Positions 27,870 through 38,436 of a DNA stretch of 48,197 nt are shown piece after piece. A program made the position numbers and the translations under genes. The stretch spans positions 1-48,197 of the forward strand of contig CAJQLD010000063.1 in NCBI GenBank assembly GCA_905479095.1, read 5' to 3'. The notes below the pieces were generated by a model. The model did no database searches. It worked only from the letters and a program-made list of their open reading frames with translations, and was not told where the DNA came from. The stretch's first letter is position 1. Every line of letters starts with the position of its first letter. This DNA comes from an uncultured Flavobacteriaceae bacterium (GTDB taxonomy: Bacteria; Bacteroidota; Bacteroidia; Flavobacteriales; Flavobacteriaceae).

Positions 27870-29336
27870 TTAAATTCTCGGTAAATCATTATCATCTTTT
27901 AATGGTAATGCAGAAGTGCCCATTAAATAGGTGTCTACATGATGTGCCGCCTGTCTTCCTTCAGAAATAGCCCACACAATTAATGATTGTCCTCGACGCA
28001 TGTCACCTGCTGCAAATATGCCTGGAACGTTTGTCACGTAATCTTTGGTCGTTGCTTTGATGTTGGTTCTAAAATCCATTTCTAAACCAAACTGATCTGC
28101 CAATGTTTTTTCTGCACCGGTAAATCCGAGTGCCAACAAAACTAAATCACAGTCCCATAATTTTTCTGAGTTTGGAACTTCGTTTAGTTGTGGGCGTTCT
28201 CCTTTCTTAAAAGTCCACTCTACCTCCACTGTTTTTAATGCTTTTAACTTACCCTTACCATCGCCAATAAATTCTTTTGTAGAAACACTAAAAAATCGTT
28301 CGACACCTTCTTGGTGAGATGAGGTCGTTTTGAGCTTCATCGGCCAATATGGCCACGGTTGATTTGCAGGTCTTCCTTCAGATGGTTTCGAAAGAATTTC
28401 AAAATTTGTGACGGAGGTTGCTCCATGACGATTTGAAGTTCCAATACAATCTGATCCTGTGTCACCACCACCAATTACAATCACATTTTTACCTTTGGCT
28501 GATAAGATCTCTTTAAAGTCTACAAGCCCATCTACATACTGGTTGTTTCCTTTTAAAAAATCCATTGCTTGATGCACACCTTCTAGATCAGCGCCAGGAA
28601 TTGGGATGTTTCGTTTAACGGTTGCACCTCCACAAAGCACTACCGCATCAAAATCGGCCTTTAACTGATTGGCGTCTAAATTTTTACCAACGTGCGCATT
28701 TGTTTTAAACACAATGCCTTCTTCTACTAATACGTTTACACGACGGTCAATAACGTTTTTTTCCATTTTAAAATCTGGAATCCCATAACGTAACAACCCT
28801 CCTACCTTAGAGTCTCGTTCAAAAACGGTTACGGTATGTCCGGCTCTGTTTAATTGTTGAGCAGCCGCTAATCCCGCAGGGCCAGAACCAATGACGGCAA
28901 CCGTTTTATCGGTTCTTACTTTGGGAGGCTTTGCAGTGATCCAACCTTCTGTAAAGGCCGTTTCTACAATGTTTTTTTCAATGTTTTCAATGCTTACCGG
29001 ATCTTCATTAATTCCTAAAACACAGGCTTCTTCACAGGGCGCAGGACACAATCTCCCTGTAAATTCTGGAAAATTATTCGTCGAATGTAAAATCTCAGCT
29101 GCTTCTTTCCATTTACCTTTGTAAACTTTATCGTTAAAGTCTGGAATTAAATTCCCGAGTGGGCAACCGCTATGGCAAAACGGTATTCCGCAATCCATAC
29201 AACGCGCACCTTGGTCTTTCAACTTCGATTCTTCAAGTGGAATTGTAAATTCCTTGTAGTTTTTTATTCTCTTTTTTGGTGTCTGATATGTTTCATCCTG
29301 ACGCTCAAATTCTAAAAATCCTGTTATCTTTCCCAT
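27870..29336 (-). CDS. gltD: Glutamate synthase small subunit
   Basis: The NAD(P)H-oxidising beta subunit that feeds electrons to GltB. It is 488 residues. N-terminal iron-sulfur cysteines are Cys46, 49, 54 and 58 (CMDCGIPFCHSGCP) and Cys97, 101 and 105 (CPAPCEEAC). An FAD motif VIGSGPAGLAAAQQ and an NAD(P)H motif VIGGGDTGSDC follow. Its start lies two bases after the gltB stop, so the pair is one transcript. The last bases before the ilv promoter contain no clear terminator. Confidence 0.96.
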   Translation of the reverse strand: MGKITGFLEFERQDETYQTPKKRIKNYKEFTIPLEESKLKDQGARCMDCGIPFCHSGCPLGNLIPDFNDKVYKGKWKEAAEILHSTNNFPEFTGRLCPAPCEEACVLGINEDPVSIENIEKNIVETAFTEGWITAKPPKVRTDKTVAVIGSGPAGLAAAQQLNRAGHTVTVFERDSKVGGLLRYGIPDFKMEKNVIDRRVNVLVEEGIVFKTNAHVGKNLDANQLKADFDAVVLCGGATVKRNIPIPGADLEGVHQAMDFLKGNNQYVDGLVDFKEILSAKGKNVIVIGGGDTGSDCIGTSNRHGATSVTNFEILSKPSEGRPANQPWPYWPMKLKTTSSHQEGVERFFSVSTKEFIGDGKGKLKALKTVEVEWTFKKGERPQLNEVPNSEKLWDCDLVLLALGFTGAEKTLADQFGLEMDFRTNIKATTKDYVTNVPGIFAAGDMRRGQSLIVWAISEGRQAAHHVDTYLMGTSALPLKDDNDLPRI

Positions 29337-29338
29337 CC

Positions 29339-33835
<4,497 letters not shown>

Positions 33836-34108
33836 ACTTAAAATTATTTCTGGTTGAATCTTAATAAGGATGTAATATAATTGGTAAAAGTCGATTTTAA
33901 AAAAAGCCAAGTCACTTTTTCGAAATTCCAATTTAGAATACCTATTTCTGCATTTTGAGCAATTAAATACGCAATAGACTATCGAATAATCAATGAGAAA
34001 TTGACCGCCTATTTAATAACGTATATATAAGGACAGGCCTCACAAAAAACAATTCTAAAAAAACAACAGACTATTGAAATATTAAAAATATTATAAATAA
34101 AATTGCAA

Positions 34109-34130
34109 TACCCTAAAAATTTAGGGGGTT
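34109..34130. promoter_or_regulatory. Distal operator copy, TACCC-N12-GGGTT
   Basis: Imperfect palindrome TACCC-TAAAAATTTAGG-GGGTT with an inner perfect CCCTAAA-AA-TTTAGGG. Its centre at 34119.5 is exactly 52 bp upstream of the next copy. A 17-base core of its reverse complement (CCCCTAAATTTTTAGGG) is identical to the P-II operator at 36786-36809. Confidence 0.65.
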
Positions 34131-34157
34131 AAATTAAATATTACACAAAAGTTATCA

Positions 34158-34185
34158 ATATACCCTTCTTTTTTAAAGGGTATAT
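34158..34185. promoter_or_regulatory. Proximal operator copy, TACCC-N12-GGGTA, before the porin gene
   Basis: Perfect 10-base arms ATATACCCTT / AAGGGTATAT with an 8-base centre. The 22-base core is 34161-34182. It ends 15 bases before the -7 box, so it covers the -33 region and would be centred near -40 from the start of transcription. Confidence 0.7.
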
Positions 34186-34197
34186 GTTAATTATACT

Positions 34198-34205
34198 TAG
34201 TTTTG
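34198..34205 (+). promoter_or_regulatory. -7 box of the porin-amtB promoter
   Basis: TAGTTTTG is an exact match to TAnnTTTG, 40 bases before the ATG. No TTTG is present at -33; the operator lies there instead, the expected picture for an activator-dependent promoter. Confidence 0.6.
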
Positions 34206-34245
34206 AGCCGTTAACTAAAAATATTAACTACTAAAATTAACTATT

Positions 34246-35277
34246 ATGAAAAAAATTATTTTAAGTGCAATTGTTTTTGTTGGAGCCATGACTCTAAACG
34301 CACAAGATGAAGCTCCTAAATTATCAGTTTCTGGAACAGTAGATGTTTATTACAGAGCAAATTTATCTGCTCCAAATGATGAAGATGCTATTGCGCCAGG
34401 ATCTTCTTTTGCACAATTGCCTGGGTTTTCTCTCGGAATGGCAAACGTAATCGCAAGCTATGAAGGCGAAAAAGCTGGGTTTGTTGCGGATTTAGTTTTT
34501 GGTCCAAGAGGAACAGACGCTATTTTTGCATCTCCAATGTATTCAGGTACAGGAAACATTGTTAACCAATTATATGCTTACTGGAATGTAAGTGAATCGG
34601 TAACATTAACAATGGGTAACTTTAATACCTTTTTAGGATATGAAGTGATTTCTCCTGCTGCCAACTTTAACTACAGTACATCTTACTTGTTTTCTTACGG
34701 CCCATTTAGCCACACAGGAATAAAAGCTGATTTTGACTTAGGAAGCGATTGGTCTTTAATGACAGCCGTTATGAATCCTACTGACTTAACAGAATTCAAC
34801 CCAACAGGAGATTATGCTTTTGGTCTTCAACTAGGTTACGCAGGTCAATACCTAAACTACTTAAGCTCTCAAGGCGCATACGAAGTGGATTTTACAGGTG
34901 GGTTTGACTTGTCTGATTCCTTTTTCTTAGGTGTTAACGCTGCTTATTTTGACGCAAGTGATGATAATGACTCTAGTTTTGCTGGAGCTGCTTTATATCC
35001 ACAGATTGCTGCTTCTGAAAGCTTCTCTTTAGGATTAAGAGCTGAATATTTTGTTGAAACTGAAGGGGGCGCGGGTGCTATTGGTGCTTACGATGCTGAT
35101 GGCGATGCAGACATTTTTGCTGTAACATTAACAGGAAGTTATACTGTAGGAAGCTTAATGATTAAACCAGAATTAAGATTAGATTCAGCAAGCGAAGAAG
35201 CTACTTTTATAGATAATGACTTAAAGTCTTCTAAGAGCTTATCATCATTTGTAGTAGCTGCTGTTTATTCTTTCTAG
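34246..35277 (+). CDS. Outer-membrane beta-barrel porin linked to amtB
   Basis: A 343-residue outer-membrane protein with a signal peptide at residues 1-20 (ends LNAQ), and thereafter alternating hydrophobic and polar strands rich in Gly, Ser, Asp and aromatic residues. It ends in a C-terminal aromatic strand VVAAVYSF typical of barrels. It resembles the porin-2/OmpL-like group found next to ammonium transporters in Bacteroidetes. The only downstream gene before a terminator is amtB (37-base gap), so it probably opens the outer membrane to ammonium or another small nitrogen solute during starvation. The substrate is inferred from context. It is controlled by the promoter with two palindromic operators. 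Confidence 0.85.
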   Translation: MKKIILSAIVFVGAMTLNAQDEAPKLSVSGTVDVYYRANLSAPNDEDAIAPGSSFAQLPGFSLGMANVIASYEGEKAGFVADLVFGPRGTDAIFASPMYSGTGNIVNQLYAYWNVSESVTLTMGNFNTFLGYEVISPAANFNYSTSYLFSYGPFSHTGIKADFDLGSDWSLMTAVMNPTDLTEFNPTGDYAFGLQLGYAGQYLNYLSSQGAYEVDFTGGFDLSDSFFLGVNAAYFDASDDNDSSFAGAALYPQIAASESFSLGLRAEYFVETEGGAGAIGAYDADGDADIFAVTLTGSYTVGSLMIKPELRLDSASEEATFIDNDLKSSKSLSSFVVAAVYSF

Positions 35278-35314
35278 TACGCGTACCAATATTAACCAAT
35301 CAAATATATAATTT

Positions 35315-36604
35315 ATGTCACATTTAATTAACAACTTACCTCTAGTAATACAGGATGCCGCTGCGGTTGAGAGTCTTGCTGGAGCGATCAAGGACGACAT
35401 GGGAATGTTATGGATGCTGTTATCTGGTATCTTAGTATTCTTTATGCAGGCTGGTTTTACTTTAGTAGAATCTGGAATGACACGTTCAAAAAATGCAGTG
35501 AACATCGCAATGAAAAACTTGCTTGATATCGCTGTAGGTTCTCTTACCTACTGGTTTGTAGGATACTCTCTCATGTATGGAGACACAACCAATGGTTGGT
35601 TCTTCTGGAGTGGAATTATGCAAGGTGAAGGCGCTGATTTATTCTTCCAAACAATGTTTGCTGCGACTGCTGCAACAATTGTTTCTGGCGCAATTGCTGG
35701 AAGAACAAAGTACTCAACGTACATTATCTTTTCAATCGTAATGACGGCTATTATCTACCCAATTGCAGGGGGATGGCAATGGCAAGGATCGGGTTGGTTA
35801 ACAGAGCTCGGTTTTATTGACTTTGCTGGTTCTTCAATCGTTCATGCTGTCGGTGGTTTTGCTGCTTTAGTTGCTGCTTATATGGTAGGTCCTAGAATTG
35901 GAAAATACATTGACGGAAAAGTAATGCCTATTCCAGGTCACAACCAAATATTAGCAACCTTAGGGGTGTTTATCCTTTGGTTAGGATGGTTTGGTTTTAA
36001 CGGTGGATCTCAACTTGCTTGGGGTGGAGACGATTCAGTTGCTGCTTCTACAGTGGTTTTAATCACGAATCTTTCTGCTGCTGCGGGTGCCTTAGGGGCG
36101 CTTATTACAACATGGATCTGGTACGGTAAGCCAAACTTAGCGCAATCATTAAATGGTGCTTTAGCTGGTTTAGTAAGTATTACTGCAGGGTGTGGAAACA
36201 TGACGGCTGGTGGTGCTGTATTAGCGGGTTTAATTGGTGGTATCATCGTTGTATTCTCTATTGAAATTATCGAAAAGAAACTTAAAATTGACGATGCTAT
36301 TGGTGCGGCATCTGTTCACGGTGTTGTTGGATTCTGGGGAACGATTGTTATCGGACTTTGGGGTGTAGACGGCGATGCTGGACTTGGGATCTTTAACGGA
36401 GGTGGTTCTGCTCAACTTGTAGCACAATTGACTGGAGGGTTGGCATATGCTGTATGGGCTGTCGTTCTTTCCTTTGTAGTCTTTGGAGTCCTTAAGTACA
36501 CTGTTGGATTGCGAGTTACTGAAGAAGAAGAAGTTGCTGGATTAGACATCTCAGAACACGGATCTATTGCATATCCTGGTAAAAGAGAAAGAGGTCAAGA
36601 CTAA
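35315..36604 (+). CDS. amtB: Ammonium transporter, first copy
   Basis: A 429-residue inner-membrane channel with eleven predicted membrane helices. The twin pore histidines are His177 (SIVHAVGGFAALV) and His335 (SVHGVVGFWGTI). The signature FQTMFAATAATIVSGAIAGR is at 111-130. No cleavable signal is obvious; a 30-residue N-terminal segment precedes helix 1. The C-terminal tail (GLDISEHGSIAYPG) carries the cytoplasmic motif used for gating by P-II proteins. It is transcribed with the porin and followed by a terminator at 36677-36710. Confidence 0.96.
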   Translation: MSHLINNLPLVIQDAAAVESLAGAIKDDMGMLWMLLSGILVFFMQAGFTLVESGMTRSKNAVNIAMKNLLDIAVGSLTYWFVGYSLMYGDTTNGWFFWSGIMQGEGADLFFQTMFAATAATIVSGAIAGRTKYSTYIIFSIVMTAIIYPIAGGWQWQGSGWLTELGFIDFAGSSIVHAVGGFAALVAAYMVGPRIGKYIDGKVMPIPGHNQILATLGVFILWLGWFGFNGGSQLAWGGDDSVAASTVVLITNLSAAAGALGALITTWIWYGKPNLAQSLNGALAGLVSITAGCGNMTAGGAVLAGLIGGIIVVFSIEIIEKKLKIDDAIGAASVHGVVGFWGTIVIGLWGVDGDAGLGIFNGGGSAQLVAQLTGGLAYAVWAVVLSFVVFGVLKYTVGLRVTEEEEVAGLDISEHGSIAYPGKRERGQD

Positions 36605-36676
36605 CTTCAAAAAAATATGGAGTATTCATTTACTCTAAAAAAATTAAAAATTAGTTTGTGATTTTTAGTTTGTGTT

Positions 36677-36710
36677 AAAAACCTTAGGGGCTCGCGCTTC
36701 TAGGGTTTTT
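36677..36710 (+). terminator. Intrinsic terminator after the porin-amtB unit
   Basis: Stem AAAAACCTTAG / CTAGGGTTTTT (one G-U pair) with a GC-rich loop region, ending in a T-run, about 70 bases after the amtB stop. It separates this unit from the P-II gene, which therefore needs its own promoter. Confidence 0.75.
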
Positions 36711-36734
36711 ATGTTTAATGCTATTTAGCAACAA

Positions 36735-36756
36735 GCCCTTCAAAATAAACAGGGTA
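36735..36756. promoter_or_regulatory. Degenerate distal operator copy before the P-II gene
   Basis: The right half-site GGGTA (36752-36756) is intact. The left half reads GCCCT, with CCC shifted by one base. The centre at 36745.5 is exactly 52 bp upstream of the perfect copy, the same spacing as in front of the porin gene, which is why I list it. Confidence 0.4.
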
Positions 36757-36785
36757 TTATTGTCATATTCATAAAAATATATACT

Positions 36786-36809
36786 ATACCCCTAAATTTT
36801 TAGGGGTAT
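36786..36809. promoter_or_regulatory. Perfect operator before the P-II-amtB unit
   Basis: Perfect 11-base arms ATACCCCTAAA / TTTAGGGGTAT around a 2-base centre. The 22-base core TACCC-CTAAATTTTTAG-GGGTA ends 14 bases before the -7 box at 36823, matching the layout at the porin promoter within one base. Confidence 0.7.
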
Positions 36810-36822
36810 TTATATTTTTAAT

Positions 36823-36830
36823 TATTTTTG
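36823..36830 (+). promoter_or_regulatory. -7 box of the P-II-amtB promoter
   Basis: TATTTTTG matches TAnnTTTG exactly, 23 bases before the P-II ATG. As at the porin promoter, no -33 TTTG is present and the operator occupies that position. Confidence 0.55.
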
Positions 36831-36853: not shown

Positions 36854-37192
36854 ATGAAAAAAGTAGAAGCAATCATTAGAAAATCTAAATTTTCTAGTGT
36901 CAAAAAAGCCCTGCACGAAGTCGGTGTGAATTTTTTTTCGTACTGGGACGTTACAGGCCTTGGGAACGAAAAAGAAGGCCATGTATACAGAGGTGTTTCT
37001 TACAGCACGAGTGACATCCAAAGGCGCTATTTATCTATTGTTGTAAATGATGATTTTGAAGAAGTGACCATCAAGGCGATCCTCTCAGCAGGCTCTACAG
37101 GCGATGTTGGTGATGGAAAAATCTTTGTATCACAGGTCGATGAAGTATATAGAATTAGAACCGGCGAAAAAGGCGGAAATACATTAAAATAA
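36854..37192 (+). CDS. glnB: P-II family nitrogen regulator, Bacteroidetes type
   Basis: A 112-residue trimeric signal protein expected to sense 2-oxoglutarate and ATP/ADP and to plug AmtB. Conserved features are the start MKKVEAIIRKSKF, the T-loop tyrosine Tyr50 (YRGVSY, equivalent to Tyr51), the B-loop TGDVGDGKIFV (82-92) and the C-terminal YRIRTGEKG. It departs from enteric GlnB/GlnK in the segment GLGNEKEGHVYRG (35-47). The ligand-binding Gln39 is Glu, and the loop before YRG has one extra and two missing residues. The gene starts six bases before the second amtB ends its spacer, so the pair is co-transcribed from the promoter at 36823. The name glnK would be equally suitable given the amtB linkage. 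Confidence 0.93.
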   Translation: MKKVEAIIRKSKFSSVKKALHEVGVNFFSYWDVTGLGNEKEGHVYRGVSYSTSDIQRRYLSIVVNDDFEEVTIKAILSAGSTGDVGDGKIFVSQVDEVYRIRTGEKGGNTLK

Positions 37193-37197
37193 CAACC

Positions 37198-38436
37198 ATG
37201 GAATTACTAACTATCAATAACGTATGGATGATGATCTGTACGGCACTCGTTTTCTTTATGCATACTGGATTTGCATTTCTAGAAATTGGGCTCACACGTC
37301 AAAAAAACACAATTAATATTTTATTTAAAAACATCTTTATTATAACCGTTGGGCTTCTCCTTTACTATATGGTAGGCTTTAACTTAATGTACCCTGGAGA
37401 TTTTAATGGGTTTATAGGATCTATTGTTCCTGGGATAAGCCCACCAGAAAACGGCATGACTGCCGAGTATGCCGATGGTGGCTATACGTGGTGGACCGAC
37501 TTTTTATTCCAAGGCATGTTTGCCGCAACCGCAGCAACAATTGTTTCTGGAGCCGTTGCGGAACGTATGAAAATCGGAGCCTTTATGATTTTTACGGTTG
37601 TATATGTCGGGTTTATCTATCCAATTGCTGGATCTTGGCAATGGGGTGGCGGATTTTTATCGTCGCTAACCATAGGAGATGCGGAAGGTTTTTATGATTT
37701 TGCTGGATCTACCCTCGTCCACTCTGTAGGGGGATGGGCTGCTTTAGTCGCTGTTTACCTTTTAGGAGCTCGGATTGGGAAGTTTAATAATGGAACGTCT
37801 CAGGCCATTCCAGGACACAACATCCCATTAGCAACGGCTGGAGTTCTTATTCTTTGGTTGGGCTGGTTTGGATTTAACGGCGGTTCTGTATTATCAGCAA
37901 ACCCCGAAGCAACGTCCTTAACTTTGGTAACCACCTGTTTGGCCGCTGCCGCTGGTGGTGTCGTCGCAATGATTACCTCAACGATCTTATATAAAAATTT
38001 AGATTTAACAATGTTCCTAAATGGTATTTTAGGTGGACTTGTAGGGATTACTGCCGGTGCAGACCAGATGAGCCCAGAAGATGCCATTTTAATTGGAGCG
38101 ATTGCTGGCGCACTCATAGTATTTGCAGTGAGCTTAGTTGATAAAATTAAATTAGATGACCCCGTAGGGGCCATTGCTGTACACCTTATTTGTGGTGTAT
38201 GGGGAACCTTAGCTGTTGGACTTTTTGGCGCCAAAGCAGGGGTTGATCAGTTTCTCGTTCAACTCATTGGAGTTTTGTGTTATGCTGTGTTTTGTATCGC
38301 GACTTCTTTCCTTATCATCTTCGCATTAAAGAAGACCATGGGTATTAGAGTCTCGGAACGAGAAGAACTAGAAGGTCTTGATGCCCACGAACACCAAATG
38401 GATGCTTACCCCGATTTTAGGTTAAATGAACATTAA
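37198..38436 (+). CDS. amtB: Ammonium transporter, second copy
   Basis: A 412-residue paralog of the channel at 35315. The N-terminus begins directly with helix 1 (NNVWMMICTALVFFMHTGFAF). The pore histidines are His175 (STLVHSVGGWAALV) and His329 (IAVHLICGVWGTL), and the signature FLFQGMFAATAATIVSGAVAER is complete. It carries an extra loop of about 25 residues between helices 2 and 3 (PGISPPENGMTAEYADGGY) absent from the first copy. The C-terminal tail ends GLDAHEHQMDAYPDF. It lies five bases after the P-II gene, the standard glnK-amtB couple, and is followed by a bidirectional terminator. Confidence 0.96.
   Translation: MELLTINNVWMMICTALVFFMHTGFAFLEIGLTRQKNTINILFKNIFIITVGLLLYYMVGFNLMYPGDFNGFIGSIVPGISPPENGMTAEYADGGYTWWTDFLFQGMFAATAATIVSGAVAERMKIGAFMIFTVVYVGFIYPIAGSWQWGGGFLSSLTIGDAEGFYDFAGSTLVHSVGGWAALVAVYLLGARIGKFNNGTSQAIPGHNIPLATAGVLILWLGWFGFNGGSVLSANPEATSLTLVTTCLAAAAGGVVAMITSTILYKNLDLTMFLNGILGGLVGITAGADQMSPEDAILIGAIAGALIVFAVSLVDKIKLDDPVGAIAVHLICGVWGTLAVGLFGAKAGVDQFLVQLIGVLCYAVFCIATSFLIIFALKKTMGIRVSEREELEGLDAHEHQMDAYPDFRLNEH

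Follow-up and report, generated by a model that had tools for sequence, protein, structure and literature searches.

The window, the whole 48,197-nucleotide stretch of DNA analysed here, comes from an uncultured Flavobacteriaceae bacterium and carries two ammonium-transport units, porin-amtB and P-II-amtB. The glutamate synthase gene gltB is transcribed divergently from porin-amtB, and the first of two operator pairs lies in their common intergenic region; in relatives, gltB shares such a pair or owns one. For the second ammonium transporter, the best NCBIfam match is the marine subtype (TIGR03644, below cut-off). Table 1 lists the promoter elements and the genes around them.

Table 1. Promoter elements and neighbouring genes in the window. 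Negative numbers are promoter positions with the -7 box placed at -12 to -5.
Feature	Position	Strand	Details
gltD, glutamate synthase small subunit, after gltB	27870..29336	-	TIGR01317
gltB, glutamate synthase large subunit	29339..33931	-	PF00310/PF01645/PF04898/PF01493
Distal operator, porin-amtB promoter	34109..34130	+	1 mismatch; dyad ~-90.5; A-rich core; pair score 66.2 bits
Middle element ACAAAAGT, porin-amtB promoter	34145..34152	+	family consensus ATAAAAAT; ~-65 to -58
Proximal operator, porin-amtB promoter	34161..34182	+	0 mismatches; dyad ~-38.5; T-rich core
-7 box TAGTTTTG (TAnnTTTG), porin-amtB promoter	34198..34205	+	15 bases past proximal copy
BBP2-type outer-membrane porin gene	34246..35277	+	Pfam PF07642
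amtB, ammonium transporter	35315..36604	+	PF00909/TIGR00836
Distal operator, P-II-amtB promoter, degenerate	36735..36756	+	3 mismatches; ~-89.5; pair score 49.8 bits
Middle element ATAAAAAT, P-II-amtB promoter	36771..36778	+	
Proximal operator, P-II-amtB promoter	36787..36808	+	0 mismatches; ~-37.5
-7 box TATTTTTG, P-II-amtB promoter	36823..36830	+	14 bases past proximal copy
P-II family signalling protein gene	36854..37192	+	PF00543
Second ammonium transporter gene	37198..38436	+	PF00909, TIGR00836 above cut-off; TIGR03644 below cut-off

An earlier note on this DNA had described four TACCC-N12-GGGTA palindromes, spaced 52 bp centre to centre at both promoters, with the proximal copy ending 15 or 14 bases before a TAnnTTTG box. 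Checking the sequence bore this out: all four copies lie where they had been placed, with 1, 0, 3 (the degenerate copy) and 0 mismatches, the 52-bp spacing holds for both pairs, and the boxes at 34198-34205 and 36823-36830 follow at 15 and 14 bases, respectively. The palindrome is better written as ACCCY-N10-RGGGT, its core consisting of A/T. Since A predominates in the distal copy and T in the proximal one, the two copies together form an approximate dyad of their own, with mirror symmetry.

With up to 2 mismatches allowed, the single motif occurs 7 times in the window against 8.6 times by chance and is therefore weak evidence when taken alone. Exact copies (0 mismatches) number 4 in the 2.23-Mb genome, two of them within the window, and a reversed control pattern had none at 0 mismatches in the same genome. 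One exact copy falls in coding sequence, in recQ (L001), and was judged unrelated, as was a single palindrome upstream of glyS (L005). The glyS site (L005:1501-1522; G000:C29:10157-10178) is a good lone palindrome, TACCCCTTAATTCATAGGGGTT, followed three bases on by a TATTTTTG box, and possibly reflects chance or another use of the site. For the pair, 54 promoters from relatives, none of them from the window, were used to build a 74-bp matrix. With it, the porin-amtB pair (34109) scored 66.2 bits and the P-II-amtB pair (36735) 49.8 bits, compared with less than 7.5 at the next unrelated place in the window, and the best score on 60 Markov resamples of 48 kb was 9.2 bits. The operator pairs are real and far beyond chance, and of the refuting outcomes named in the earlier note, none turned up among those that could be checked here.

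The TAnnTTTG box has been mapped to -12 to -5 in Flavobacterium psychrophilum (PMC9723704), and we aligned 48 promoters with the box placed at that position. In this alignment, the CCC/GGG arms of the distal palindrome occupy -99 to -97 and -85 to -83, and those of the proximal palindrome -46 to -44 and -32 to -30. A third fixed element, absent from the earlier note, lies between the palindromes: ATAAAAAT at -65 to -58, with A at -62 in 48/48 promoters and variable flanking columns. An offset of 15 between the proximal copy and the box is the commonest in the family (31/56 promoters). The usual -33 element is indeed missing, as neither TTG nor any consensus appears at -33 across the 48 promoters. 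The dyads, by contrast, had been put near -41 and -93 and would have to be moved if the box lies at -12 to -5, as taken from PMC9723704: they would then fall at -38.5 and -90.5 in the first promoter, and the proximal dyad of the second at -37.5, as against -41.5 for an activator of the CRP/FNR/NtcA type. An NtrC/sigma-54 promoter was rejected, since the 48 promoters show no -24/-12 GG/GC, having A/T-rich columns at -26 to -24 and TAnnTTTG at -12 to -5.

For conservation, we gathered 80 P-II loci of named relatives with a P-II query, without use of the motif. In many of these loci, a palindrome pair precedes the P-II gene or the porin gene ahead of it, and the spacing, tallied over 20-120 bp, is concentrated at 51-55. 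Alignment of relatives' promoters revealed that both copies are kept, 52-54 bp apart, and that the box follows 14-16 bp further on, in agreement with what had been expected of orthologous promoters. A sequence-only model, R1, trained on 48 rows that include both window promoters, had matches at E ≤ 1e-6 in 84/149 Flavobacteriaceae genomes and none in ~145 genomes from the other families of the class; in a class-wide sample, matches below 1e-5 were found in Flavobacteriaceae only. The R1 E-values of the window promoters themselves are circular because both are among the training rows, whereas the leave-out matrix test is not. Four near-complete genomes (G002, G020, G098, G142) encode this P-II family protein and have no clear operator pair, suggesting that the regulon has been lost or rewired in places. 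Polaribacter-type promoters upstream of the porin gene (L028, L037, L043, L049, L056, L057) show a displaced form of the arrangement, in which palindromes follow one another at 52-bp steps and, in some cases, an additional degenerate copy lies upstream; in L028, the -7 box lies just ~7 bases past the last palindrome.

Collected loci totalling 1.17 Mb contained 102 distinct pairs within a spacing window of 45-60 bp. The spacing was 52 bp in 47 pairs, 53 in 42 and 54 in 10, that is, 52-54 bp in 99/102. No pair (0/102) lies inside an ORF, and 99/102 stand upstream of porin-amtB/gltB, P-II-amtB, glnII/glnN, ald or another amt, a count partly biased because many of the loci were drawn via the motif model; the 80 P-II loci are free of such selection. 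Two of the remaining three pairs precede genes missed by labelling, probably porins. R1 matches outside the training set lie upstream of glnII (a 340-residue glutamine synthetase), the divergent glnN (729 residues, type III), ald, gltB and one further amtB, with all names read by eye. The palindrome had earlier been noticed at amt promoters only; a pair between glnII and glnN is also present in the genome to which the window belongs (G000:C34) and in the congener G123, and its presence at such assimilation genes marks a nitrogen-assimilation regulon, more than an amt feature. Beside glutamine synthetases, the order glnII, exchanger-like membrane protein, blaI-like, blaR1-like is conserved in L159, L163, L168, L172, L178 and L195, as read by eye.

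Building on what the computation establishes, namely the pairing of the palindromes, the conservation of the pairs and the genes that they precede, we propose that the palindromes are probably the operators of a dedicated Flavobacteriaceae nitrogen-control transcription factor, which would activate assimilation genes when nitrogen is short. One dimer would bind each palindrome. The proximal dimer, centred at ~-38.5, would stand in for the -33 element that this sigma-A promoter lacks, and the distal dimer, five helical turns upstream (~-90.5), would occupy the same face of the DNA. The fixed A-tract at -65 to -58 most likely either binds the RNA polymerase alpha C-terminal domain or bends the DNA for dimer cooperation. 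Such a layout would suit an activator that recruits sigma together with the alpha C-terminal domain, or else a looped complex formed cooperatively. The targets of the factor would most likely be porin-amtB, P-II-amtB, the glutamine synthetases and glutamate synthase, joined in some genera by alanine dehydrogenase.

It is the layout by itself that would favour activation over repression. Under an AmtR-like logic, the proximal dimer would cover the -33 region and block polymerase, the distal dimer would strengthen the block by looping, and nitrogen shortage would release it. In-phase paired operators are also typical of looping repressors, and the proximal palindrome, at ~-49 to -28, overlaps the polymerase site. 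There is also a precedent in AmtR of Corynebacterium, a nitrogen master regulator that acts as a repressor at the palindrome tttCTATN6AtAGat/aA (PMC2723105). We nevertheless consider repression somewhat unlikely: the -33 element is replaced, not overlapped, so that the promoter looks activator-dependent, and the conserved A-tract at -65 to -58 suits polymerase recruitment more than repression. That the palindromes work at the RNA level, as terminators or attenuators, is scarcely credible; GC-armed inverted repeats, one with T-rich DNA after it, might suggest as much, but they recur as fixed-spacing pairs at a constant distance before a conserved -7 box in dozens of promoters.

As to the family of the proposed activator, the tandem arrangement is like that of class II CRP promoters, and the earlier note had drawn an analogy with CRP/FNR-type activators, NtcA included. 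The idea of a nitrogen-starvation regulator holds in so far as the targets are nitrogen-assimilation genes; the family assignment does not, since G046 (99% complete), in which porin-amt, P-II and glnII/glnN all have strong sites, encodes no cNMP-binding domain, a contradiction that stands unless its assembly misses that single gene. The cNMP_binding domain is likewise found 0 times in G052, G139 and G112, HTH_Crp_2 is missing from G052, G147 and G112, and the arms run TACCC...GGGTA, whereas in the NtcA box the order is reversed (GTA-N8-TAC), all of which makes a CRP-type regulator extremely improbable. An Rrf2/IscR type-2 site was rejected because G046 (99% complete) and G009 (100%), both with strong sites, have 0 Rrf2 proteins. 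A Lrp/AsnC-type regulator is encoded near ald in several genera (L162, L164, L167, L169, L177) and is missing in ~34/149 genomes. This ald-linked Lrp (clade A) was set aside, as it is missing from the near-complete motif genomes G007, G105, G113, G118 and G134; the Lrp clade that neighbours glnA in some genomes was discarded as well, since it is missing from the motif-bearing genomes G043, G052 and G139. The occurrence of BlaI/BlaR1 close to glnII seems to reflect no more than local synteny. Among transcription factors beside regulon genes (Lrp types, BlaI), none is common to all motif genomes, and no regulator gene was found downstream of the weaker model matches examined.

Two leads remain, as candidates only. 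One is an orphan atypical NarL/LuxR-type response regulator (pseudo-receiver) of the dnaG-RR-nadE-gldB-gldC locus, which might run nitrogen assimilation via a three-part operator, two in-phase palindromes plus a polymerase-binding A-tract, on sigma-A promoters, a tentative assignment that we regard as rather improbable. The gene occupies this locus in 12/14 motif genomes examined (neighbour names by eye), the protein consists of receiver and GerE domains, and its phospho-Asp is replaced by Glu, Thr, Ser or Gly in 11/12, as in orphan regulators. The lux box reads ACCTG-N10-CAGGT and the NarL heptamer TACYYMT; the operator has the dimensions of the former and its arm fits the latter. Weighing against this candidate, the gene was not found in G000 and G052 (each ~90% complete), and the locus has neither a genomic link to nitrogen genes nor an operator pair. 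Moreover, the DNA-contacting helix, similar in 11/12, has diverged in G112 (AVNKHKNILL) despite a standard motif. The regulator is fixed at this locus in Flavobacteriaceae (L400-L411; for example, L401:8455-9075, minus strand), with Glu mostly in place of the phospho-Asp, and our literature search turned up no paper devoted to the dnaG-nadE-gldBC atypical regulator. If this reading were true, nitrogen control would lie with a master regulator that has no relationship to NtrC, NtcA, GlnR, TnrA or AmtR.

The other lead, in our judgement a long shot, is a Lrp-family protein of AsnC type (LDEVDHQILDILI..., with LLISAGTVHVRVKKME as its recognition helix), which would bind as a multimer with all 74 bp wrapped around it. 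The regular spacing and mirror symmetry would suit such a multimer, although known Lrp-type sites are ~15 bp long with contacts nearer the dyad. The protein appears in nearly every genome, among them five near-complete motif genomes that lack the ald-linked paralogue, a count resting partly on matches at ~37-41% identity, the weaker of which were assigned to the clade from their identity level. Of the 149 genomes, 144 contain a match either to this protein or to the ald-linked paralogue, and the co-occurrence with the motif is weak because the protein is almost universal. Near-complete genomes without any AsnC-type match (G023, G035, G041) have no operator match at E ≤ 1e-6; G003 (80% complete) and G147 (73%) carry the motif and show no second AsnC-type match.

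The earlier note knew of no described factor with this site, and none turned up in the open papers searched, which yielded no such motif or regulator for Bacteroidetes and no nitrogen regulator named for Flavobacteriaceae. The F. psychrophilum transcriptome paper describes sigma-factor motifs, and a term search of its main text brought up nothing resembling the paired motif (PMC9723704). In Prevotella ruminicola, amtB, glnK and glnN transcripts change with nitrogen supply, with no promoter or motif mentioned (PMC5552732). The operator pair points to a nitrogen control system of Flavobacteriaceae, a large family of marine and soil bacteria. With a family-wide operator and a target list, the sensing of nitrogen shortage becomes a bench question in which the operator can serve as pull-down bait, and the exclusion of CRP, Rrf2, ald-linked Lrp and sigma-54 narrows the list of suspects.

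Among known systems, the layout would work like tandem class II CRP-type promoters: in both, two in-phase dimer sites are separated by five turns, the proximal site takes the place of the -35 region, and an A/T element in between offers a possible contact for the alpha C-terminal domain. The layout is set apart by its sequence, its predicted proximal centre at ~-38.5 instead of -41.5, its sigma-A TAnnTTTG promoter and the lack of a CRP-family protein in G046. In cyanobacteria, NtcA, a member of the CRP family, activates from near the promoter a nitrogen regulon that includes amt, glnA and glnB. The present regulon likewise comprises nitrogen genes under a predicted near-promoter activator, but the NtcA box is GTA-N8-TAC, as opposed to TACCC-N12-GGGTA, and G046 lacks the CRP family. 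GlnR of actinomycetes, an atypical orphan response regulator of nitrogen, offers a possible parallel to the pseudo-receiver candidate, and to that candidate only; it differs in its OmpR-type DNA-binding domain and its site. Finally, the AmtR regulon of Corynebacterium resembles the one proposed here in having palindromic operators at amt, P-II and assimilation genes under a non-NtrC regulator, and differs in that AmtR is a TetR repressor with another site (PMC2723105).
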